Assembly: GCA_016930435.1 (NCBI GenBank)
Contig: JAFGGQ010000020.1
Location: 1-14,319, forward strand
Length of the DNA: 14,319 nucleotides
Origin: a bacterium
GTDB taxonomy: Bacteria; UBP14; UBA6098; JAFGQG01
Direction of reading: 5' to 3'
The notes under the pieces were generated by a model. That model worked only from the letters and a program-made list of their open reading frames with translations, had not been told where the DNA came from and did not search any database. Both the position numbers and the translations under genes were made by a program. Below, piece after piece: positions 1,994 through 14,319 of the stretch; the stretch's first letter is position 1, and the number at the start of each line of letters is the position of its first letter.

Positions 1994-2206
1994 ATGCCCA
2001 GAATGGAGGTTTATACCGATCATTGCAAAGGGTGCGAATTATGTGTTGAAATCTGTCCGGCGGGGGTTATAGAGATGTCGGAGGAAATCAATAAATTAGG
2101 CTATCATCCTGCCCGTTACAAGGGGGAGGGTTGCACCGGTTGCGGTTTTTGTTTTTATGCTTGTCCGGAGCCGGATGCAATTACTGTTTACAAAAAAGAG
2201 GATTAA
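1994..2206 (+). CDS. 2 x [4Fe-4S] ferredoxin subunit of 2-oxoacid:ferredoxin oxidoreductase (delta)
   Basis: This is a 70-residue protein with two complete cluster motifs: C11-x2-C14-x2-C17-x3-C21-P and C47-x2-C50-x2-C53-x3-C57-P. It is thus an 8Fe-8S ferredoxin-like protein of the size usual for the delta subunit of KOR/VOR-type oxidoreductases. It would pass electrons from the TPP/FeS core to soluble ferredoxin in the cytoplasm. A good Shine-Dalgarno (GAAGGAG at 1981-1987) sits 7 bases before the ATG. The alpha subunit begins 18 bases after its stop, and the gene order delta-alpha-beta is the common one for this enzyme family. Subunit assignment is strong; the substrate of the complex cannot be read from this subunit. 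Confidence 0.9.
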
Positions 2207-2224
2207 ATACATCTGGAGGTTATT

Positions 2225-3271
2225 ATGGCTAAAGAACTAATAAAGGGTAATGAAGCAGTTATAAAAGGAGCCTTATTGGCCGGCTGCCGGAATTATTTCG
2301 GTTATCCGATCACTCCGGCTTCCGAGATCGCCCATGCCGCTTCTAAATATTTTCCATTGTTAGGGCGCTCATTTTTGCAGGGTGAAAGCGAGGTTGCCTC
2401 GATCAATATGTGTTATGGCGCAGCGTCGGCGGGGGTCCGCACGATGACCGCCTCGTCGGGCCCGGGTATCAGCCTGAAACAGGAGGGAATCTCCTATGCC
2501 GCCGGTTCCGAATTACCCATAGTCATTGTAGATATTCAGCGCGGTGGACCGGGTTTGGGTAATATCGCGCCTGAACAGGGAGATTACAACCAGGTTACCA
2601 AAGGCGGCGGTCATGGGAATTACAAGACTATAGTGCTTGCTCCCAATTGCGCTCAGGAGATGTGTGACCTTACTATGCTGGCCTTTGATCTCGCTGACGA
2701 ATACCGCACCCCGGTTTATGTTTTTACCGATGGCTATATTGGGCAAATGATGGAGCCGGTTGAATTTCCAAAAGCCAGGGAAATCAAAGTTGAAAAGGAT
2801 TGGGCAGTGTGGGGAAATCGTGAATCCAGGGATAATTTGATCAATTCAATTTACCTTGAGCCGCTGGAACTGGAAGCCCACAATCAAAAATTACAGGATA
2901 AATACCAGCTTATAGAAGAAAAAGAAGTAATGTTCGATACCTATCGGTTGGATGATGCAGAATTGGTTACGATGGGTTATGGAATTGTATCCCGGATACT
3001 TAAAACAGCGATTGATAAAGCGAGGAAAAAAGGGTTAAAAGTGGGATTGTTGAGGCCCATCACGCTTTTTCCTTTTCCGAACAAGAAGATTCAGGAACTG
3101 GGGAACCGGGTAAATTCATTCCTGGTGGTCGAGATGAGCAATGGCCAGATGGTTCAGGATGTTAAGTTAGCTCTGTTGGGTGCCAAACCCGTCTATTTCT
3201 ATAATAGAATGGGTGGAGTGGTTCCCACGGTTAATGAGGTACTGAATAAAATTGAGGAAATATTGAAGTGA
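2225..3271 (+). CDS. vorB: 2-oxoacid:ferredoxin oxidoreductase alpha subunit (VorB/KorA family)
   Basis: This 348-residue protein is the pyrimidine-binding (alpha) subunit, with the usual family length. Near the N-terminus is the [10 protein letters not shown] block (residues 32-41). This is followed by the family blocks [20 protein letters not shown] and [10 protein letters not shown] that build the TPP/substrate pocket. Residues from about 230 to 345 form the C-terminal transketolase-like domain ([17 protein letters not shown]). The enzyme oxidatively decarboxylates a 2-oxoacid to an acyl-CoA with reduction of ferredoxin, or runs in reverse. The overall look, especially the GGPGLGN and GGGHG segments, is closest to proteins annotated as 2-oxoisovalerate (branched-chain) VorB. 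2-Oxoglutarate and 2-oxobutyrate cannot be excluded. The gene lies between the ferredoxin gene and the beta-gamma fusion, 9 bases before the latter. Confidence 0.9.
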
Positions 3272-3280
3272 GGTAATAGA

Positions 3281-4717
3281 ATGGCGAAAGATATTTTAAG
3301 AAAACCTAAGGGATTTAATGACGTTTATTTTAATAAGCCAGGCGCTGACAAGGAAAATACTCATTATTGTCCTGGCTGTGGGCACGGTGTTGTACATAAA
3401 CTAATCGCCGAAGCGCTTGAGGATTTTGGTGTTGCGGACAGGGCAATCATGATCAGTCCGGTCGGATGCAGTGTGTTCGTTTATTATTATTTTGCTACCG
3501 GCAATGTCCAGGCTGCTCATGGCCGCGCGCCGGCTGTCGCTACCGGCCTGAAGCGAGCCAACCCTGATAGCATTGTGATAAGTTATCAGGGAGATGGCGA
3601 TCTGGGTGCGATAGGGGGGAACAATATCCTCCAGGCGGCTAACAGGGGTGAAAATATTACGGTTATCTTTGTGAATAATGCTATCTACGGGATGACCGGT
3701 GGACAAATGGCCCCAACTACCCTGGTGGGCCAAAGGACAATGACTACTCCCTACGGCAGATCGGTAGAAAACGAGGGCTACCCTATAAAAATATGCGAAT
3801 TACTAGCCTCCCTGGAATCTCCCGCTTACCTTGAAAGAACGGCAATCACCGATGTGAAAAACATAATGAAGACCCGGCTGGCCATAAGGAAGGCAATTAA
3901 AGTCCAGATAGATAACAAGGGATTCTCCCTGGTCGAAATTCTTTCTGCCTGCCCCAGTGGCTGGCGAATGACCCCCCGAAAAGCCAAAGAATGGATAACC
4001 ACCAATATGATGCCCTATTTTAAACCGGGGGTCTATAAGGACGTGTTGAATGAACGCAAACCTTATGCTCCGGCAAAATTGAACCTATCCCTCGATGAGA
4101 TAGATGAGAAGCTGGGCTTGAAAGAGGAAGCCCCTTCTTTCCCCGGCGATATGTCCGGACTCAAGGAAAATCACCGCAATCCCCGTATCAAAGTAGCCGG
4201 GTTCGGAGGTCAGGGGGTACTCATGCTGGGAAATGTCCTCGCCGAAGCGGGGATGTTGCAAGGTTATGAAGTAAGCTGGCTGCCATCCTACGGACCGGAA
4301 ATGAGGGGAGGCACCGCGAATTGCCAGGTGCATATTGACGAGGATAAGATCGGCTCGCCGGTGGTCTCCGATTCAACAGTGCTTATAGCCATGAACAAGC
4401 CCTCTCTGGACAAGTTTGTACCGGACGTAGTGCCTGGCGGTGTGGTACTTTATAATACCTCCATGATAGACCAGGCTCCCAGGCGAAAAGACCTGGAAAT
4501 TATTCCGGTTCCGGCTTCTGAAATAGCCGATGCAACGGGCGATCTGAAAGTTGCTAATATGGTGATGATAGGAGCTTACCTTGAAACAACCAAGGTAGTC
4601 TCCAAAGAGGCGGTATTTGCTGCCCTGGATATTGCCATTAAGCATAAAGGATTTATTCCCATGAATCAGAAGGCTATTGAACAGGGAATAGAGCATGTTC
4701 GTAAAATAAAGGGATAG
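3281..4717 (+). CDS. 2-oxoacid:ferredoxin oxidoreductase, fused beta (TPP-binding) and gamma subunits
   Basis: The 478 residues hold two subunits that are usually separate. Residues about 26-255 are the beta subunit: CPGCG (C30, C33), C63 and C224 are positioned as the ligands of the proximal [4Fe-4S] cluster of OFOR beta subunits. GDGD (104-107) with NNAIYG (132-137) is the TPP/Mg motif. A linker of roughly 45 residues leads to a gamma domain (about 302-478). It begins [11 protein letters not shown] and contains SYGPEMRGG, both hallmarks of the POR/KOR gamma family. The gene begins 9 bases after the alpha stop with a weak GAGG Shine-Dalgarno. Both halves look intact, so this is a real fusion and not a missed stop. 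The complex would couple 2-oxoacid oxidation to ferredoxin; substrate is uncertain (branched-chain type favoured from the alpha subunit). Confidence 0.9.
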
Positions 4718-4775: not shown

Positions 4776-5459
4776 ATGGATAGGTTATCATATACCCGGT
4801 TTTGTGCAATTTTAATGGCCGTAATGGTATTATTTTCATCCTTATGGAGTCAGGTTGAGATAGATGGTTTCCATCTTGATTACGCCCCTGATTCCAGCGC
4901 GGTTTTAATTCCGGAGAATGCTACCTATGAGAATCCCCGGGCACTTCTGGTATTATTGAACTGCAAAGGGGGTACGGTACAGGATATCTATACTAATGTC
5001 GCAGTTGCAGAAACACTTCGCTGGTTTATGGCTTCCTGCAAGGGGCCCCGTAACCATCGTGAAACCGCTTTGAACGAGCATGATATTCTGAACCTTGTCC
5101 AGTATTTGTGCGACGCCTATCCGGTAGATACCAACCAGGTTTATATATTTGGATTTTCGGGTATGGGGGCTCAGGCTCTGGCGACCGCCTGCAATAATCC
5201 GATGAGGTTCGCCGGGGTGATCTCAACCTGTGGGCATAATGCCGGATTGCAGGATGTTGACTGGGATAAAGCCAGTTCCCTCAAATTCTATCTTATTACA
5301 AGGGAGAAGGATTGGAACCGGGTACATAACGAAAATCTAAACTCCTTTTTTCAGGGCAAAGGCATCAGGAGCTGGTTACTCTTAACCCCGGGAGAACATC
5401 AGGAAGGCCCCCCTCAGGAATGCTATAATGGTTGCCGGTGGATGTACCTGACCCGTTAA
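4776..5459 (+). CDS. exported alpha/beta-hydrolase, esterase-like
   Basis: The protein has 227 residues. Residues 1-26 are a signal peptide (hydrophobic FCAILMAVMVLFSSLW, probable cleavage after WSQ). The mature part has ALLVLLNCKGG (strand plus oxyanion region). Its nucleophile elbow is G126-F-S128-G-M-G131, preceded by the PVDTNQVYIFGFSGMG pattern seen in PHB-depolymerase/phospholipase-type carboxylesterases, where the residues after PVD form the approach to the Ser. H208 in PGEHQ is the probable catalytic His; D179 (REKDW) is a candidate acid. The domain is small and lacks a visible lid. It starts 58 bases after the oxidoreductase fusion (GGAGAGG Shine-Dalgarno) and ends 43 bases before the dehydrogenase, so it shares the operon although it is periplasmic or secreted. 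Substrate is unknown. Confidence 0.75.
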   Translation: MDRLSYTRFCAILMAVMVLFSSLWSQVEIDGFHLDYAPDSSAVLIPENATYENPRALLVLLNCKGGTVQDIYTNVAVAETLRWFMASCKGPRNHRETALNEHDILNLVQYLCDAYPVDTNQVYIFGFSGMGAQALATACNNPMRFAGVISTCGHNAGLQDVDWDKASSLKFYLITREKDWNRVHNENLNSFFQGKGIRSWLLLTPGEHQEGPPQECYNGCRWMYLTR

Positions 5460-5502: not shown

Positions 5503-6615
5503 ATGACTGATTTTATGAAGGCGGTTGTAAAAACGGAACCCAGAATAGGTGCTTGTTACAAGGATGTTCATTTCCCCCAACTGCAACCTGATTGGGTCAT
5601 CGTTAAAGTCAAAGCCACTTCTATCTGTGGCACTGACGTGCATATTTATAAATGGGACGAATGGAGTGCCACCCGCATTGGAGAACATAATCTGCCTCAG
5701 ACACTGGGCCACGAGGTAGCAGGATATGTGGTTGAAGTAGGAGCCCATTGCAAGCGGATCAAGGTCGGAGATTATATCTCTGCGGAAACCCATATCTATG
5801 ATCCTGCTGATATCCCCTCCCTTATGGGCCAATTCCATGTGGGTGACAATATGAGGATTCTGGGGGTAGATTGTGATGGCGCTTTCGGAGAGTATTTTGC
5901 CATACCAGAATCAGTTTGCTGGGTTAACGATAGCAGTATCCCATTTGAATTCGCGACGGTGCAGGAGCCAATGGGAAACGCCGCTTATGCGGTTCTTGGA
6001 GAGGATAATGATATCGCAGGCAAAAGTATGGCATTTATAGGCGACGGACCGATAGCCCTGTTCGGCATCGGGATTGCCCGGGCTTGCGGAGCCGCCAATA
6101 TATTCGCCATTGGGCTGAGCGAATATAATCTGTTGATCGCCTCAAAAATGGGCGCCGACCATATTCTCTATGCGGATGGCCGGGACGGGGTGGATCGCTT
6201 TAGCTATATTCGCGATAACACTTATGGCGCCGGCGCGGACATAGTCCTGGATATGGTTGGAGTTCCACAGGCAATTCAGGATGGCTTTAAATATCTTCGT
6301 AAAGGAGGACGATTTTCCGCATTTGGGATCTCGGGAAAGCCTCAATTCCCAATAGATTATAATAATAGCATTGTATTTAAGGGAGCTCAGATCTACGGAA
6401 TTAGCGGACGAAAAATATTCGATACCTGGTACAGGGTTAGAAATCTGCTGGCCCACAACCGTATCGATATTGCCCCGGTAATTACCCACATGTTCGAACT
6501 GAAGGATTTTCAGAAGGGATTTGATCTTCTTTTAGCAGAGCCCCGGGAGTGTGCCAAGGTAGTTTTATTCCCGGAAGAAGATGAACTAAAAAAAGCCTTG
6601 AAAAGAAAACAATAA
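5503..6615 (+). CDS. tdh: zinc-dependent MDR dehydrogenase, L-threonine 3-dehydrogenase-like
   Basis: This 370-residue medium-chain dehydrogenase resembles E. coli Tdh throughout: SICGTDVHIYKWDEW (40-54), GHE (69-71), GNAAYAVL (158-165) and ITHMFELKDFQKGFD near the C-terminus. Tdh oxidises L-threonine to 2-amino-3-ketobutyrate, the substrate of Kbl encoded downstream. Catalytic-zinc residues C42, H70, E71 and E155 are present. The structural-zinc loop has the normal length, but all four cysteines are replaced (D100, D103, S106, G114). The Rossmann motif is G180-D-G182-P-I-A. The usual Asp at the end of the second strand is Gly204, so cofactor preference may not be ordinary NAD. A Lys-rich tail of about 15 residues extends past E. 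coli Tdh. A related polyol or amino-alcohol dehydrogenase role is possible, but the Kbl neighbour favours threonine or a close analogue. Confidence 0.8.
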   Translation: MTDFMKAVVKTEPRIGACYKDVHFPQLQPDWVIVKVKATSICGTDVHIYKWDEWSATRIGEHNLPQTLGHEVAGYVVEVGAHCKRIKVGDYISAETHIYDPADIPSLMGQFHVGDNMRILGVDCDGAFGEYFAIPESVCWVNDSSIPFEFATVQEPMGNAAYAVLGEDNDIAGKSMAFIGDGPIALFGIGIARACGAANIFAIGLSEYNLLIASKMGADHILYADGRDGVDRFSYIRDNTYGAGADIVLDMVGVPQAIQDGFKYLRKGGRFSAFGISGKPQFPIDYNNSIVFKGAQIYGISGRKIFDTWYRVRNLLAHNRIDIAPVITHMFELKDFQKGFDLLLAEPRECAKVVLFPEEDELKKALKRKQ

Positions 6616-6634
6616 AATATATCTTGTTATTAAA

Positions 6635-7009
6635 GTGATTTTAGGCGCTGGTATAGATATTATTGAAGTAAACCGGATCAGAAGGGTGATAGAGCGATAT
6701 GGCCGTTATTTTACTGCAAGGCTTTTTTCTGAAACTGAAATCGAATATTGCGAGGGAAAAGCCCGTTCGTGTCCATATTTTGCAGCCCGGTTCGCGGCAA
6801 AGGAGGCATTCCTGAAGGCGTTGGGAACCGGTCTTGCGGATGGTATCCGCTGGAAGGATATACAGGTATTGAACGATTCCAGAGGCAAACCCTTTATCAA
6901 ATGTACGGGTAAAGCACAAGAACGGCTTGAAGCCAGAAAAGTATCACAGATCCAGCTTTCGATCACACATACAGATAACTATGCGGCTGCAATCGTAATA
7001 CTGGAATAA
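6635..7009 (+). CDS. acpS: holo-[acyl-carrier-protein] synthase
   Basis: The protein is 124 residues, the normal AcpS length. The N-terminal GAGIDIIEVNRI (4-15) contains the Mg-binding D8, and FAAKEAFLKALGTGL (53-67) contains E57; these are the two metal-binding residues of the family. LSITHTDNYAAA near the C-terminus is the usual last strand region. It transfers 4'-phosphopantetheine from CoA to the Ser of a carrier protein in the cytoplasm. The start is a GTG at 6635, 19 bases after the dehydrogenase stop, with no strong Shine-Dalgarno, which suggests translation coupled to the upstream gene. Two genes downstream lies a stand-alone carrier protein (8872-9117), a natural substrate. Whether it also serves the fatty-acid ACP of this organism cannot be told from the window. 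Confidence 0.93.
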   Translation: MILGAGIDIIEVNRIRRVIERYGRYFTARLFSETEIEYCEGKARSCPYFAARFAAKEAFLKALGTGLADGIRWKDIQVLNDSRGKPFIKCTGKAQERLEARKVSQIQLSITHTDNYAAAIVILE

Positions 7010-7123
7010 TTGGATTCCTTTCAATAACAGTAAAGGCGGTTCAAAAATTTTATAATGGTTATATGGTTATAGAAGAAGAAAAGAAAATGAACATAGTACC
7101 AGGGAAGAAAAAGGAGGTTATTT

Positions 7124-8824
7124 ATGTACGACTTCGGTCCTTATGAAAAAACTTATAAAGAATTTAACTGGGATCTGGCTAAAGAATTCCTTGAATATAA
7201 AGAAGGCGATCCTTTGAATATCGGATGGTATTGCAGCGACCGTATTTGCCAGCAGGGTAAAGCTCAAAAGATTGCCATGATCTGGGAAGGTTTTGATGGC
7301 GAGGTAAGGAAGTACAGTTTTAATGATCTTAGATTGCTTAGCAACACTTATGCCCATTACCTTAAGGGTTTAGGGATAAAACCGGGTGACCGGGTTTGTA
7401 TTTTTATGGATAAGATCCCGGATCTTTATATATCTTTTCTTGGGATACTGAAGCTGGGTGCAATTGCCCAACCGCTTTTCTCCGCATTTGGGGAGGAAGC
7501 CCTCTTCACGCGAATGGATGATGCCGATTCCATTGCCGTTATAACTACCCGCAAACATTTCCGGAAGGTTCGCCGGATCAAAGACCAGCTCCCCCACCTG
7601 AAACATATCATTGTTGTTGATGATGAAAATGTGAGACTGGAGGAAAGGGAAAAAGTCTTCATATTGGATAAGGCGGAAAGGGTGGAGGATTTTAATATTT
7701 ATCCTACTAATCCAGAAAGCCCATCGGTACTTCATTATACTTCAGGAACGACTGGCAAGCCCAAGGGTGCTTTGCATGTACATGCCAGTATATTTGCACA
7801 AAGCCTTTCCAGTAAATGGGTGCTTGACCTCAAGGATGAGGATATTTACTGGTGTACTGCCGACCCGGGTTGGGTTACCGGAACCAGCTACGGAATCATT
7901 GGGCCCTGGTCTTTAGGGATCACCCAGGTAGTCTATTGCGGTGGTTTCGGCAGCGAAAAATGGTATAAACTGATGGAAAAGTTCAGGGTTTCAGTATGGT
8001 ACACCGCTCCTACTGCAATTCGAATGCTTATGAAGGATGGTACGGACCTGGTCAAGCAGCATGACCTTTCGGCGTTGCGTTATATGTGCAGCGTCGGGGA
8101 GCCCCTAAACCCGGAAGCGGTCCACTGGGGTATAGAAGCCTTCGATATGCCTTTTTATGATACGTATTGGCAGACTGAAACAGGTGCTATTGTGATCACT
8201 AACTTCCCGGGTATGAAGGTTAAACCGGGTTCAATGGGCCGGGCTTTCCCGGGGATCACTGCAGTGGTGCTGGACCTCAAAAGCTATGAGGTTATCCGGG
8301 AACCCAATAAGGTGGGTTTGATCGCCCTGAAACCGGGATGGCCCTCAATGATGAGGGAATATTGGAATAATCCCACCGTTTACCAGTCTAAATTCATCAA
8401 TGGCTGGTATATTACCGGTGACCGTTCTTCAATCGATTCAGAAGGCTACTTTTGGTTTGTGGGCCGCGATGATGATGTTATCAATACTGCCGGGCACCTG
8501 GTGGGCCCATTCGAGATCGAATCCGCATTAATCGAGCACGAAGCGGTTGCGGAAGCCGCCGCAGTAGGAAAACCCGATCCCGTCAATATGGAAGTGGTAA
8601 AAGCCTTCGTTGCCCTTAAACCCGGCTTTGAAGGTAGTAGCGACCTGGAACTCTCTATTATGAATTTCATCAGGAAAAAACTCTCCCCACTGGCTATGCC
8701 ACAGGAAATAGAATTCGTAGATAAACTGCCCAAAACCCGTTCTGGAAAGATCATGAGAAGATTGCTCCGGGCAATGGAATGGGGGGAAGAAATCGGTGAT
8801 ACCTCTACACTGGAAGATGATTAA
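7124..8824 (+). CDS. acsA: acetyl-CoA synthetase-type AMP-forming ligase (AcsA-like)
   Basis: This 566-residue ANL-superfamily ligase is close to the short Bacillus AcsA type. Motifs in order are YTSGTTGKPKG (205-215, P-loop), YWQTETG (348-354), TGD (431-433), GRDDDV (447-452, hinge Asp450) and KTRSGK (537-542, K542 being the catalytic and usually acetylatable lysine). The ending GDTSTLED also matches AcsA. W349 before QTETG corresponds to the Trp that limits the acyl pocket of Acs to acetate-size acids, so acetate is the likely substrate. At TAGHLVG (455-461) L459 replaces the Arg found in the GHR or GER of ordinary Acs and AcsA. The Shine-Dalgarno is very strong (AAAAAGGAGG). A TATAAT at about 7054 lacks a good -35 partner. 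The carrier-protein gene 47 bases downstream raises the possibility that the acyl acceptor is holo-ACP and not CoA. Confidence 0.85.
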   Translation: MYDFGPYEKTYKEFNWDLAKEFLEYKEGDPLNIGWYCSDRICQQGKAQKIAMIWEGFDGEVRKYSFNDLRLLSNTYAHYLKGLGIKPGDRVCIFMDKIPDLYISFLGILKLGAIAQPLFSAFGEEALFTRMDDADSIAVITTRKHFRKVRRIKDQLPHLKHIIVVDDENVRLEEREKVFILDKAERVEDFNIYPTNPESPSVLHYTSGTTGKPKGALHVHASIFAQSLSSKWVLDLKDEDIYWCTADPGWVTGTSYGIIGPWSLGITQVVYCGGFGSEKWYKLMEKFRVSVWYTAPTAIRMLMKDGTDLVKQHDLSALRYMCSVGEPLNPEAVHWGIEAFDMPFYDTYWQTETGAIVITNFPGMKVKPGSMGRAFPGITAVVLDLKSYEVIREPNKVGLIALKPGWPSMMREYWNNPTVYQSKFINGWYITGDRSSIDSEGYFWFVGRDDDVINTAGHLVGPFEIESALIEHEAVAEAAAVGKPDPVNMEVVKAFVALKPGFEGSSDLELSIMNFIRKKLSPLAMPQEIEFVDKLPKTRSGKIMRRLLRAMEWGEEIGDTSTLEDD

Positions 8825-8871
8825 AAACTAACTAATTTAAACCTGGCAGCTAAATACAAAAGGAGTGAGAA

Positions 8872-9117
8872 ATGGAAGACATAGAAAATACTATTCTGGA
8901 ATACGTTATTGATGAATATCTGGAGGACGAGGATGATGAAATTGGCCCGAACAGCCCACTGATCTCTTCGGGTATCGTGGACAGTTTCTCCATGGTGAGT
9001 TTAAAGACCTTTCTGGAGAGAAAATATAATATAAGCATTCCGGACGATAAGGCTACACCTGAGGCGTTCGATACGGTTAACAGGATCGCCGATGTGGTCC
9101 GTAGTTTTATTTCCTGA
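8872..9117 (+). CDS. stand-alone acyl carrier protein
   Basis: The protein has 81 residues and is acidic, with the four-helix carrier-protein pattern. The phosphopantetheine site is S38 in SGIVDSFSMVSL (33-44). The DSF motif, in place of the DSL of fatty-acid AcpP, points to a specialised carrier such as those paired with ligases (DltC or PKS/NRPS-related) and not to the housekeeping ACP. Helix 1 carries the run EDEDDE (18-23). A good Shine-Dalgarno (AAAGGAG) lies 7 bases before the ATG. It is encoded between an AMP-forming acetate ligase and Kbl, with acpS two genes upstream. The likely role is to carry an acetyl or other short acyl group between these two enzymes; that role is inferred from position only. 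Confidence 0.9.
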   Translation: MEDIENTILEYVIDEYLEDEDDEIGPNSPLISSGIVDSFSMVSLKTFLERKYNISIPDDKATPEAFDTVNRIADVVRSFIS

Positions 9118-9231
9118 AAGAGAAGTTCAAAAATGTGATTATTTCTGGGGAAGATTCTTCGAATAATGATAAGCGGAACCCGGGAATTCGATGACTATTA
9201 CATAGAATAAAGCCTAATCAAGGAGGGTGTT

Positions 9232-10479
9232 ATGGCTTATAGCGAGAAAGCCCGTAATTTTTATCAGGGCGAGCTGAGGGACATTAAAGAGGGCGGTTTG
9301 TTTAAGGAGGAACGCTTTATTCAGAGCCCTCAATCAGCGGAGATCAAGGTGGAATATCCCTCCGGCGCTCAGCCCATGGATGTAATTAATATGTGTGCCA
9401 ACAATTATCTTGGATTATCCAGCCATCCGGAAGTGATAAAGGCTTCACATCAGGGACTGGATGATCGGGGTTTCGGGATGAGCTCGGTCCGTTTTATCTG
9501 CGGTACACAGGATATTCACCGGACCCTGGAGGATAAGCTTACAAAATTCCTGGAAACCGAGGATACTATTCTTTTTGCAAGTTGCATGGATGCTAACGCC
9601 GGTGTATTTGAGGCTGTTTTCAATGATCAGGATGTGCTTATTGCAGATCGCCTGGTGCATGCCTCTATCGTTGATGGGATGAGGCTCTGCAAAGCCCTTA
9701 ATGAAAGCTACAAGCATTCCAATATGGAGCATTTGGAAAAGAAATTGCAGACCTATCAGGATGCCCGTTTTCGGTGTATAGTGACCGATGGGGTATTCTC
9801 AATGGACGGGGACACCGCTAAACTTGATGAGATCTGTGACCTGGCGGAAAAGTACGACGCTCTGGTTTTCGTTGATGATTCCCACGCTACCGGTTTTCTG
9901 GGCAAACGGGGCAAGGGAACACATGAGCTTAAAGGGGTGTTAGGGCGGATAGATATCATAACTACAACGCTGGGGAAAGCCCTTGGGGGAGCCTCAGGCG
10001 GTTGTGTCAGCGGTCGCAAGGAGATAGTGGAGATGTGCCGGCAAAGAGCCCGTCCATACCTCTTCAGTAATGCAATGCCTCCGGTGGTCGTAGCCGCCTC
10101 AAATAAGGTAATGGACTTGATCATGGGAAGTACGGAAAGGCGGGATAAGCTGGAAAATAATACAAAGTTCTGGCGGAAAAGCCTGTTGGAAGCCGGTTTT
10201 GATATCAAGGATGGGGATACCCCCATCGTACCCATTATGCTCTATAACGCCAAACTATCCCAGGATATGTCCCGGGATCTTTACCAGGAGGGTATCTATG
10301 CTATAGGTTTCTTTTTCCCGGTAGTTCCCAAGGGCCAGGCTCGAATTCGTACACAGATCTCGGCAGGGCATGATATAAATCACCTGGAAAGAGCCCTGGA
10401 AGCCTTTATCAAGGTTGGAAAGAAATATAACATACTGGGTAAGACCAAAGATGAGATAATTGAGATGTATGGCCTCTGA
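9232..10479 (+). CDS. kbl: glycine C-acetyltransferase (2-amino-3-ketobutyrate CoA ligase)
   Basis: This 415-residue PLP enzyme of the alpha-oxoamine synthase family is very similar to E. coli Kbl: EGLFKEER-like start (GGLFKEER, 21-28), CANNYLGL (55-62), SVRFICGTQD (85-94), DGVFSMDG (186-193), VDDSHATGF (214-222), GKALGGASGG and FFFPVVPKGQARIRTQ. K249 in TTLGKALGG is the PLP lysine, D215 and H218 bind the cofactor, and H143 is the probable ring-stacking residue. It cleaves 2-amino-3-ketobutyrate to glycine plus acetyl-CoA, or condenses them. It is slightly longer than E. coli Kbl (398), with a short insert near residue 45 and a C-terminal tail of about 12 residues. The Shine-Dalgarno is very strong (AAGGAGG), 114 bases after the carrier protein. 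Among alpha-oxoamine synthases some members take acyl-ACP, so acetyl-ACP is a possible substrate here. Confidence 0.93.
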   Translation: MAYSEKARNFYQGELRDIKEGGLFKEERFIQSPQSAEIKVEYPSGAQPMDVINMCANNYLGLSSHPEVIKASHQGLDDRGFGMSSVRFICGTQDIHRTLEDKLTKFLETEDTILFASCMDANAGVFEAVFNDQDVLIADRLVHASIVDGMRLCKALNESYKHSNMEHLEKKLQTYQDARFRCIVTDGVFSMDGDTAKLDEICDLAEKYDALVFVDDSHATGFLGKRGKGTHELKGVLGRIDIITTTLGKALGGASGGCVSGRKEIVEMCRQRARPYLFSNAMPPVVVAASNKVMDLIMGSTERRDKLENNTKFWRKSLLEAGFDIKDGDTPIVPIMLYNAKLSQDMSRDLYQEGIYAIGFFFPVVPKGQARIRTQISAGHDINHLERALEAFIKVGKKYNILGKTKDEIIEMYGL

Positions 10480-10505
10480 TCCAGTGGCTAATCAACAATT
10501 TATTG

Positions 10506-10536
10506 GGGCGGCTTTTAAAAGGTCGCCCTTTTTTTT
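10506..10536 (+). terminator. intrinsic terminator downstream of kbl
   Basis: GGGCGGC (10506-10512) pairs with GGTCGCCC (10521-10528), with one G-T pair; the A/T bases between can extend the stem, and a run of eight T follows at once. It is a strong rho-independent terminator in the plus direction. It lies 27 bases after the kbl stop and only 30 bases before the satP start. Confidence 0.85.
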
Positions 10537-10566
10537 GAATCTGATCTATAAATCAAAGGAGTACTG

Positions 10567-11136
10567 ATGAATGAAAAACTTGGCAATCCAGCCCCTTTGG
10601 GCTTAATGGGTTTCGGGATGACCACCGTGCTGCTCAACATCCATAATGCCGGATTCTTTCCACTGGGATCAATGATATTGGCCATGGGGATTTTCTACGG
10701 CGGAATAGCCCAGATTATCGCCGGCATAATGGAATATAAAAAGGGCAATACCTTCGGTATTACCGCCTTTACAAGCTATGGGCTTTTTTGGTTGAGCCTG
10801 GTCGCCCTGATATTAATGCCCGAAATGAACCTAATTCACCCTCCCTCAAATGCCTTTATAGGATGGTACCTGTTCATGTGGGGACTTTTTACTTTTGGTA
10901 TGTGGTTTGCCACCTGGGGTAAAAACAGGGCACTGCAGACAATCTTCCTTACCCTTACAATATTATTCTGGTTACTGGCTATCCGGGATTGGAGTGGGAG
11001 TTCTTTGATCGGGACGATTGCCGGTTTCGAAGGCATTATCTGCGGCTTCTCCGCTATATACCTGGCCCTGGCTGAAGTAATAAATGAATCCCACGGAAAA
11101 GAGATCATTCCCATTGGACTGATCAAAAAAGCCTGA
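10567..11136 (+). CDS. satP: acetate permease, SatP/YaaH (GPR1/FUN34) family
   Basis: This 189-residue integral membrane protein has the length and six hydrophobic segments of the SatP family. The signature NPAPLGLMGFGMTT (7-20) lies at the start of the first segment. FYGGIAQIIAGIMEYKKGNTFG follows, then an FTSYGLFWLSL segment, all characteristic of the AceTr family. These proteins move acetate, and in E. coli also succinate, across the inner membrane, probably with protons. Here it would supply acetate to the ligase encoded upstream, or export acetate. The Shine-Dalgarno AAAGGAG lies 5 bases before the ATG. An intrinsic terminator directly upstream leaves no room for a full promoter, so expression depends on readthrough or on a promoter inside or before the terminator. 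Confidence 0.9.
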   Translation: MNEKLGNPAPLGLMGFGMTTVLLNIHNAGFFPLGSMILAMGIFYGGIAQIIAGIMEYKKGNTFGITAFTSYGLFWLSLVALILMPEMNLIHPPSNAFIGWYLFMWGLFTFGMWFATWGKNRALQTIFLTLTILFWLLAIRDWSGSSLIGTIAGFEGIICGFSAIYLALAEVINESHGKEIIPIGLIKKA

Positions 11137-11372: not shown

Positions 11373-12770
11373 TTAATCTGAAAAGTATGCGCTTTGTTCG
11401 AATTGAATGATGGTCTTAATGGTTACCCTGCGGTTCAAAGCCCGTTCTGAAGGAGTAGCATTGGAATTAATGGGTTTGGACTCCCCATACCAGTGCAATT
11501 CGGTGGAACCATTGCAGGGTAATCGAGGGGTAATATAATCATCCACACTGATAGTCCGTTCCGATGATAGTAATAAGTTGCTCTCATCCGAACCTACATC
11601 GCAGGTGAAGCCTTCTACGATAACCCGTATCGAATAATTTTCCGGGACCTCTTTAAGCAATTCCAGATAGGTGTCCAGTTTCTGTTTTGCGGAAGGATAA
11701 ATAACGGCATTGCCCATATCGTAAAATGGAATCAATAGTACTTCCTGAAGCTCCTGAGGGATTTGGAAGGGGTCATCATTTAGATCACTATCAACTATAT
11801 TCAGGGAATCTTTGTAACTTTCAAATTGGAAGGGATCATAGGGTACCTTATATTCCCCCTTGAATTTGATAGGGGTATAGAAAACGTTAAAGGAAACCAG
11901 ATGGCACTGGCCGTCGAGTTTTTTGGATTTCGGAGAATAAGTAAGCTTATAGTAATTTGTAATCCAGTTATACAAGGAAGCAGCGATCTCGGGTGATGTC
12001 CTCTGGTCATCCATAATAAAAATTCCGCCCGTATTCTTTGCCAACTCGCTTAAAAGGCCAGGTTGAATGGTTCCGAAACCCACTACGAATATTCGGATAT
12101 TTACTTCTTTTGCCCATTTTATAAGGTTTTCATAGCTTTCTGCAGATGAGACGTTCCCATCGGTAAAGAGGATCAGGTTCTTATTGGATGACTGTGATCC
12201 CAGATAATCGATGCCTAATTGCAAAGCATCGAATAACGGTGTGCCGTTGGGCCGGGGGAGCTCTCCCTGTTCTATCCATAATATAGCAGCATTTTTGTCA
12301 TTTGTAAAGCTTTTCATTGCCCTGGTAGTACCGCCGAACTGGATTATCCTGAAATCGTCAAGATCCCCCGCAAGGGCAATGAAATTATTAATACAGCTCT
12401 TTACACCGTCAATGTAAGGGCGCATACTGCCACTGCAATCCTGGATCAGTAAAAAGCTGTTCGGACCGCTATTACCGTACCTGATAAGATTATAGGGTAG
12501 CGAATCTGTTTGAGTTCCTACTATCTCTACAAGATTACCGTCGCGCGGATGAAGATCAAGCTGGTAAGGGGAATTGAAAAACAGGGATATTGAATCGGGG
12601 AAAAGATAGGAGTTTAAAATGTATTCCGGGCTATTTTGACGTTTTAAGCACACAATATCCTGATCATGATGAGCGCATCCTCCAAGGCAACAGGACAGAA
12701 CTGCGCAGAAAATAGAAGCAAGGTGCCGCTTGCTAACAGGAGAAAGATGAAGAAAAGATTTTTTGGGCAT
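11373..12770 (-). CDS. lipoprotein with VWA domain and OmpA-like C-terminal domain
   Basis: The protein has 465 residues. The N-terminus has a basic region, a hydrophobic stretch and lipobox L29-G-G-C32, so it should be a lipid-anchored envelope protein. A von Willebrand factor A domain spans about 105-270, with a complete MIDAS: D111-C-S113-G-S115, T177 (NGTPLFDAL) and D204 (LFTDGN). Residues about 345-455 are an OmpA/MotB-like peptidoglycan-binding domain. GFTCDVGSDESN (387-398) contains D391 and LSSERTISV (401-409) contains R405, the pair that binds diaminopimelate in OmpA. YGESKPI and NATPSERALNRRV complete the family pattern. C390 and C419 could form a disulfide. It would tether a metal-dependent adhesion or scaffold domain to the cell wall. 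Neighbouring genes are metabolic and give no clue; it has its own promoter. Confidence 0.85.
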   Translation of the reverse strand: MPKKSFLHLSPVSKRHLASIFCAVLSCCLGGCAHHDQDIVCLKRQNSPEYILNSYLFPDSISLFFNSPYQLDLHPRDGNLVEIVGTQTDSLPYNLIRYGNSGPNSFLLIQDCSGSMRPYIDGVKSCINNFIALAGDLDDFRIIQFGGTTRAMKSFTNDKNAAILWIEQGELPRPNGTPLFDALQLGIDYLGSQSSNKNLILFTDGNVSSAESYENLIKWAKEVNIRIFVVGFGTIQPGLLSELAKNTGGIFIMDDQRTSPEIAASLYNWITNYYKLTYSPKSKKLDGQCHLVSFNVFYTPIKFKGEYKVPYDPFQFESYKDSLNIVDSDLNDDPFQIPQELQEVLLIPFYDMGNAVIYPSAKQKLDTYLELLKEVPENYSIRVIVEGFTCDVGSDESNLLLSSERTISVDDYITPRLPCNGSTELHWYGESKPINSNATPSERALNRRVTIKTIIQFEQSAYFSD

Positions 12771-12899: not shown

Positions 12900-14319
12900 T
12901 CAAATATGGTTTTCCCGAAATAATCCGCGATTTCTAATGATAGTATTTTTCAGGAAATTCTGATCGTCTTTGTTGGGATAATTGATATTATAGTGCAGTC
13001 CACGGCTCTCCTTCCGGCTTATAGCTGCCCGAATAACCAGTTCGCCGACAGAGAGCATATTCCGCAGTTCCAGCATTTCCTTTTTCACCGGATTTTTTCG
13101 ATAAAAACTATTGATCTCTGCTATAAGAGGGAAGATCCTTCGACTGGCTCGTTCCAATCGGGTGTTAGAACGGACGATGCCGACATAGTTCCACATAAAG
13201 TCTCTCAGTTCTTTCCAGCTATGGGAGATAACCACCCATTCCTGAGCGTCGAAAACACCTGTATCATCCCATTGGGGTATTTCCGGAAAGGTTCTTTTTT
13301 CTTTATAGCGAGATTGAATATCCAGGTAGATGAATTGGGCGAAGGTAATTCCTTCCAGGAGGGAATTGCTAGCCAGCCGGTTTGCGCCATGTAATCCCAC
13401 CGATGCGACTTCACCGCAGGCATAAAGCCTGTCAACATCAGTTGCGCCATGTTCGTCGGTCAAAACCCCTCCACACATGTAGTGAGTGCTGGGGACCACT
13501 GGTATCCAATCCTTGGTGATATCCAGCCCTTCCTCCAGGCAGGTATTATAAATATTGGGAAAGCGATGGATAAGGAACTCGGGCTTCTGGTGAGTTATAT
13601 CCAGGTAAACGCATTCCTCGCCGCTTTTTTTTAACTCGTGATCGATTGCCTGGGATACGATGTCCCGGGGAGCAAGGTCTTTGAGTGGATGGTATTTAGT
13701 CATGAATTTTTCACCATTCCCCAGGCGTAATAATCCCCCTTCTCCCCGGAGGGTTTCAGAGATCAAAAAGGAATGCTTCAACTTCTTTGAAAATAGCATG
13801 GTGGGATGAAACTGGATAAACTCCATATCCCGGATTCGAGCACCTGCCCGGTAGGCCATAGCCACTCCGTCGCCGGTAGCAATTGAAGAATTTGTCGTGT
13901 GTTTATAAAGCAGACCCAGTCCACCCGTGGCTAATACGGTAAAATTGGCAAGAATGGTTCTTACTTTGTTCTGCTCTATATCAAAAGCATAAACCCCAAA
14001 ACAGGTTATCTTTTCTCCCCTGGAAAGAGTATAATTTTTTAAATGGTGCTGGGTAAGAAGATCCACAGCTACATGATGGGTTAATATATCGATATTCTTA
14101 TGAGCTTGGGCATGGGCTAACAGGGTTTCCTGGAAGGAACGGCCGGTATAATCTCCTACATGAAGCACGCGTTTGCGGGAGTGCCCACCCTCCTTCCCCA
14201 GATCATAATCGCCAGTGGTTTCATTGCGGGTGAACGGTACCCCATATTGGATCAGTTCATGGATAGCCTGAGGAGCATATCCGACAATCTTTCGCACTAT
14301 CTTCTCATCACATAATCCA
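12900..14319 (-). CDS. nadB: L-aspartate oxidase (5'-truncated by window edge)
   Basis: The frame is open to the last base; the visible start GLCDEKIVRKIVGYAPQAI is the normal NadB continuation, so the GTG at 14297 is an internal Val codon and not the start. About 472 residues are visible. The FAD-binding N-terminus (roughly 65 residues) is outside the window. Diagnostic blocks are KEGGHSRKRVLHVGD, FIQFHPTML, ETLRGEGG, PRDIVSQAI, PSTHYMCGG and CGEVASVGLHGANRLASNSLLEG. HGANRLASNSLLE and the GGHS block separate NadB from succinate dehydrogenase and fumarate reductase flavoproteins. It oxidises L-aspartate to iminoaspartate, the first step of de novo NAD synthesis, with oxygen or fumarate as electron acceptor. 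In an anaerobe fumarate is expected. The last residues before the stop look intact, and no nadA or nadC is visible here. Confidence 0.93.
   Translation of the reverse strand, partial: GLCDEKIVRKIVGYAPQAIHELIQYGVPFTRNETTGDYDLGKEGGHSRKRVLHVGDYTGRSFQETLLAHAQAHKNIDILTHHVAVDLLTQHHLKNYTLSRGEKITCFGVYAFDIEQNKVRTILANFTVLATGGLGLLYKHTTNSSIATGDGVAMAYRAGARIRDMEFIQFHPTMLFSKKLKHSFLISETLRGEGGLLRLGNGEKFMTKYHPLKDLAPRDIVSQAIDHELKKSGEECVYLDITHQKPEFLIHRFPNIYNTCLEEGLDITKDWIPVVPSTHYMCGGVLTDEHGATDVDRLYACGEVASVGLHGANRLASNSLLEGITFAQFIYLDIQSRYKEKRTFPEIPQWDDTGVFDAQEWVVISHSWKELRDFMWNYVGIVRSNTRLERASRRIFPLIAEINSFYRKNPVKKEMLELRNMLSVGELVIRAAISRKESRGLHYNINYPNKDDQNFLKNTIIRNRGLFRENHI

Follow-up and report, generated by a model that had tools for sequence, protein, structure and literature searches.

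A conserved ligase–carrier protein–Kbl gene module that may hold a two-carbon acyl group for threonine and glycine metabolism

The window, i.e. the whole stretch of 14,319 nucleotides of contig JAFGGQ010000020.1 analysed here, carries six intact genes on its plus strand between positions 5503 and 11136. They encode a Tdh-like protein of the zinc-type (MDR) L-threonine 3-dehydrogenases (5503–6615), a holo-ACP synthase (AcpS, a 4'-phosphopantetheinyl transferase; 6635–7009; TIGR00516, 105 bits against a cut-off of 60), an AcsA-type AMP-forming ligase that is a putative acetyl-ACP synthetase (7124–8824), a dedicated acyl carrier protein (ACP) of 81 amino acids (8872–9117), a Kbl (glycine C-acetyltransferase; 9232–10479) and a SatP/YaaH acetate permease (10567–11136; NF038013, 275 bits against a cut-off of 50), separated by gaps of 19, 114, 47, 114 and 87 bases respectively. 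A purine-rich, Shine-Dalgarno-like stretch lies just 5' of the Tdh, ligase, ACP, Kbl and SatP genes; unlike these five, the AcpS gene, which starts with GTG, has no such stretch upstream. Because a strong terminator-like hairpin with a T run (10505–10529, plus strand; 11 pairs, fold −16.9 kcal/mol, z −3.4) sits between Kbl and SatP, the permease is probably separate from the main transcript. The preliminary description had seen one co-directional six-gene run with intact motifs, which stands for the genes themselves but is weakened for SatP as a member of the operon. SatP recurs near the module in several phyla (loci L048, L055, L061, L218, L219 and L232).

The co-directional run starts upstream of Tdh, with a ferredoxin, a VorB-type alpha subunit and a fused TPP/gamma subunit of a 2-oxoacid:ferredoxin oxidoreductase (1994–4717, plus strand). 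Between this oxidoreductase and Tdh lies a protein weakly resembling PHB depolymerases/esterases, with a hydrophobic segment at its N terminus (4776–5459), which is kept in G001 with 52% identity; this genome, from the window's own family, shows the same gene order as the window up to Kbl (locus L172). The neighbours on the minus strand are a DUF4159 protein (790–1503), a VWA-OmpA lipoprotein-like protein (11373–12770) and the L-aspartate oxidase NadB (12900–14297), which is cut at the window's end.

The carrier matches PF00550 (26.4 bits against a cut-off of 20.8) and has the serine of the family's DS motif, Ser38 in DSF, within GIVDSFSMVSLKxFLE. Its closest solved relatives are pyrrole/prolyl carriers (6cxt, PltL and PigG), and it is more like peptidyl/prolyl carriers than like FAS ACP. 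Those proteins carry proline in secondary metabolism, whereas the partners of the window's ACP are an acetate ligase and Kbl. When the ACP was searched in relatives, all eight other strong matches were adjoined by the ligase and/or Kbl, and an alignment of the nine ACPs has an invariant GIVDSFSMVSLK core. This alignment was searched against the GTDB species set, which gave 457 relatives, and 80 loci were kept. Kbl directly follows the ACP in 78 of the 79 loci with room for it, and an AcsA-type ligase directly precedes it in 70 of 77, the latter count being biased since the loci were picked by their ACP. The Kbl counts were verified without that bias by independent ACP and Kbl searches of 386 genomes, where all 30 strong ACP matches (better than 1e-26) adjoin a Kbl. 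The expectation that the ligase–ACP–Kbl triplet would be conserved in relatives was thus borne out, and conservation across the 386 genomes rules out a chance neighbourhood. AcpS, often found beside the triplet, precedes the module in 43 of the 70 loci that have room, and a second Kbl occurs nearby in 21 of the 80. Record titles give about 15 phyla or candidate phyla for the module; we state the spread as about a dozen because the Kbls of L069 (Fibrobacter) and L071 (Latescibacterota) are nearly identical and one of the two genomes may be misbinned. No fusion of the ACP to the ligase or to Kbl was found. The sole locus with room in which the ACP–Kbl pair is broken is L051 (CP070707.1, a chromosome of 4.06 Mb), where ligase and ACP are present but a Kbl is lacking within 8 kb.

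The ligase is less tightly bound to the module. Four genomes contain ACP and Kbl without the cassette ligase (G040, 100% complete; G335, 97%; G187, 97%; and G081, 100%), the order in G335 being Tdh-AcpS-ACP-Kbl-Kbl2. No alternative loader of the ACP was evident among the ORFs beside these modules, ORF calling being poor in GC-rich contigs. Because all four genomes are near-complete, ACP and Kbl make up the more tightly linked core, with the ligase as one way of filling or emptying the carrier, which weakens the preliminary description's view of the ligase as an obligatory part. It follows that in such genomes either another loader exists or acetyl-ACP derives from threonine.

The window's Kbl scores 597 bits with TIGR01822 (cut-off 493) and has its PLP-binding lysine, Lys249, in TLGKALGG. 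ACP-adjacent Kbls cluster in a single clade, within which four positions change with the carrier (R140, V142, H167 and F362 in the window); if the carrier role proposed below is right, these proteins would be a compact test case for the CoA/ACP switch of oxoamine synthases. The combination of V or I at 142 with H167 occurs in all 106 ACP-linked Kbls and in only one of 66 others. Residue 142 corresponds to N135 of Escherichia coli Kbl and directly precedes His136, which we take to be the PLP-stacking residue; in E. coli numbering, linked Kbls are changed at the conserved positions F112 (to M), N135 (to V), S268 (to A) and Y357 (to F). What appears to be a natural experiment, and the best evidence that these residues follow the ACP, comes from G010 and G015, two genomes of the window's own class in which neither ACP nor cassette ligase was found, an absence that is likely rather than certain at completeness values of 92% and 74% respectively. 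Their Kbl is nested in the linked clade beside the window's class (support 100/97 with the four tracking columns masked) and keeps other residues inherited from that clade, yet it has the canonical states E140, N142, D167 and Y362. Two Kbls lacking a recognised ACP are exceptions, that of G252 (L211) showing the linked state RIHY and that of G380 (L214), which is adjoined by AcpS, the half-linked RIDF. Second Kbls within module loci have N142, as in canonical Kbl. In Delongbacteria (L029, L036, L053, L074, L080 and others) such a second Kbl with N142 follows the ACP-linked one in tandem; one tree placed it within the linked clade, at the end of a long branch.

The ligase likewise exceeds the cut-off of its CoA family, the AcsA acetate–CoA ligases (NF003313, 780 bits against 729), and shares fold, motifs, acetate pocket and catalytic lysine with Bacillus-type AcsA acetyl-CoA synthetase (closest solved chain 9g79). 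Its pocket residues V251, T252, V324 and W349 are the equivalents of V310, T311, V386 and W414 of E. coli Acs, which are kept in 96 of 97 cassette ligases. The differences from AcsA lie elsewhere. The A8 arginine of acetate–CoA ligases (Acs R526) is leucine in all 97 cassette ligases, including the window's (Leu459), against Arg in 20, Met in one and Leu in none of 21 other AcsA proteins; in AasR of E. coli BL21, too, this arginine is absent, Asn taking its place. A KG loop has become NM, and three new, near-invariant basic residues (K144, K148 and R150) stand where Acs has its CoA loop. The equivalent of R191, a variable position, is lost in most cassette ligases and that of Arg584 is kept; R191, R194 and R584 of Acs presumably contact CoA, and A8 presumably lines the pantetheine tunnel. 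Loss of the Arg194 loop was dropped as a cassette marker, since some other AcsA-type ligases also lack it. Cassette ligases group apart from other AcsA, and ligases reaching about 700 bits with NF003313 (117 genomes) belong to ACP-bearing genomes, except for the canonical AcsA of G067 and of G113, the latter genome having only a weak ACP-like match. Our reading of these residues is that the acetate side would be unchanged and the thiol-acceptor side changed, which points to ACP, not CoA, as the thiol partner.

The link to threonine comes from the dehydrogenases. The window's Tdh-like protein stays below the curated cut-off of TIGR00692 (344 bits against 458) and lacks the structural-zinc cysteine quartet of E. 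coli Tdh; it keeps the catalytic Cys and His-Glu/Glu motifs, and its best solved matches are archaeal L-threonine dehydrogenases (3gfb/2d8a), so that by sequence it is classed as a divergent Tdh. A threonine dehydrogenase recurs in 18 of the 80 loci, which supports the preliminary description, being of the SDR type in 10 and of the MDR type in eight, never both in one locus. The SDR protein, which gives up to 440 bits against solved L-threonine dehydrogenases, is encoded directly upstream of AcpS or the ligase in several loci. Among the whole cassette genomes tested, a good MDR match was obtained for G000, G001 and G021, whereas G004, G007, G009, G022 and G084 have the SDR type. The two types are non-homologous, and because two unrelated enzymes of the same reaction have been recruited beside one cassette, there is strong evidence that 2-amino-3-ketobutyrate would be the intermediate. 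Threonine synthase (ThrC) is present in several cassette genomes, so threonine synthesis through the module would not be generally needed; its occurrence is uneven both in relatives with the cassette and in those without it, and only in G021 does ThrB exceed its cut-off.

In textbook chemistry Tdh and Kbl convert threonine to glycine and acetyl-CoA, and Acs converts acetate to acetyl-CoA, neither needing an ACP. The tdh-kbl pair for threonine degradation in E. coli shares both enzyme families with the module, and some cassette-less relatives of the window have a canonical Kbl beside or near a threonine dehydrogenase; the E. coli system differs in having neither ACP nor ligase, and linked Kbls form a clade of their own with changed residues. 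Closer in logic is AasR-AcpR-SPT, which starts sphingolipid synthesis in Caulobacter and E. coli BL21 (PMC9386255); in Caulobacter, AasR loads acyl groups on AcpR but not on CoA, and acyl-AcpR is the preferred substrate of SPT (PMC9386255). Both systems have an AMP-forming ligase for a dedicated ACP (a predicted function in our case) followed by an alpha-oxoamine synthase, both consist of clustered, co-conserved genes with a dehydrogenase/epimerase gene nearby, and in both the ligase lies elsewhere in some genomes. They differ in substrate, i.e. a long-chain acyl group and serine there against the acetate and glycine proposed here, in ligase type (AasR is a fatty acyl-AMP ligase, that of the window AcsA-like) and in that Kbl does not decarboxylate, unlike the synthase of the sphingolipid system. 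As the BL21 proteins are only remotely homologous (ligase 22%, synthase 29%, ACP matched over 35 residues only), the window's module resembles AasR-AcpR-SPT in logic but is not a member, and the likeness to sphingolipid logic drawn beforehand was apt. No description of an ACP with a glycine C-acetyltransferase as a module was found in the literature searched, which left out most subscription journals; the module is real and widely conserved, and apparently undescribed.

We propose that AcpS would attach phosphopantetheine to Ser38 of the ACP, as its family predicts, and that the ligase would convert acetate to acetyl-AMP and hand on its acetyl moiety to holo-ACP instead of CoA, a role suggested by the kept acetate pocket, the changed acceptor side and the confinement of its clade to ACP-bearing genomes. 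The linked Kbl may then move the acetyl group between ACP and glycine, making or cleaving 2-amino-3-ketobutyrate, as conserved adjacency and the residues tracking the ACP suggest, and the threonine dehydrogenase (zinc type in the window, SDR elsewhere) would interconvert this compound and threonine. The net reaction would be acetate + glycine <-> threonine, with an acetyl pool held apart from acetyl-CoA. Taken as a whole, the gene set is probably best explained as an alpha-oxoamine-synthase module with its own dedicated carrier for a two-carbon acyl group, and the central idea of the preliminary description finds support in these comparisons. We lean slightly towards the synthetic direction, in which acetyl-ACP and glycine would be driven by ATP toward threonine. 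A private carrier recharged with ATP would drive the unfavourable condensation whatever the acetyl-CoA/CoA ratio; 21 of the 80 loci keep a second Kbl in the canonical state, which would fit a division of labour with CoA for breakdown and ACP for synthesis; and the related precedent is synthetic. Marcus and Dekker reportedly found in 1993 that threonine can be formed in vitro by Kbl and Tdh of E. coli acting together. The fuller proposal of a primary-metabolic acetyl carrier in about a dozen phyla, in which an ATP-charged acetyl-ACP pool would be used by Kbl with glycine and by threonine dehydrogenase to form threonine, is plausible, though we hold it only tentatively.

The flow may instead be opposite, with threonine dehydrogenase and Kbl breaking threonine down to glycine and acetyl-ACP in an energy-conserving fermentation of threonine; the AMP-forming ligase would then run backward, releasing acetate while AMP and PPi yield ATP, or the acetyl group would go to a different enzyme. 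In keeping with this, the window's run begins with a VorB-type oxidoreductase, typical of amino-acid fermentation, the hosts are largely MAG lineages taken as anaerobic fermenters, ORFs similar to ADP-forming acetyl-CoA ligases occur near L049, L052, L077 and L079, ThrC is present in several cassette genomes, and G335 combines Tdh-AcpS-ACP-Kbl with no ligase. We nevertheless think it rather unlikely, as acetyl-ACP brings breakdown no obvious gain over acetyl-CoA and the second canonical-state Kbls could already perform it in the loci that have them; to our knowledge, AMP-forming ligases running in reverse are also rare.

Improbable as well is a different product, i.e. Kbl using some other small acyl-ACP or some other amino acid, or aminoacetone leaving toward a specialised metabolite: the four conserved positions altered in linked Kbls and a carrier nearer to peptidyl/prolyl carriers than to FAS ACP would fit this, but the ligase keeps its acetate pocket, SatP and the two threonine dehydrogenases recur, and no recurrent tailoring genes occur nearby. 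Slightly more doubtful still is that the genes are mere neighbours, the ligase an ordinary acetyl-CoA synthetase, Kbl an ordinary CoA enzyme and the ACP serving something else, since scores above both CoA-family cut-offs and a textbook chemistry that needs no ACP are set against a fixed order in about a dozen phyla, unbroken ACP–Kbl adjacency in the separate search, and clade-specific residues that follow the ACP and are canonical in G010 and G015.

If the dedicated-carrier explanation is true, many uncultured lineages have their threonine/glycine metabolism misannotated, the labels "acetate--CoA ligase" and "glycine C-acetyltransferase" hiding enzymes that act on a protein carrier. The principle of a dedicated ACP with an oxoamine synthase, known from lipids and natural products, would then apply in central metabolism as well, to a C2 unit, and possibly provide an ATP-driven route from acetate and glycine to threonine.

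Aminoacetone and methylglyoxal chemistry are related, and in Saccharicenans/Aminicenantes (L058, L064–L066, L068, L076, L082 and L097) an ORF resembling methylglyoxal synthase precedes the module at a distance of about 6 kb; being confined to this one group, it was treated as synteny and set aside as a part of the module. In L046 (3600–5974) the ligase is flanked by two copies of the ACP. A P-II-like protein (PF00543), possibly a regulator of the module, is encoded between ACP and Kbl in G004 and G007 (L173, 9500–9835, and L174, 10043–10378), both of the window's class.
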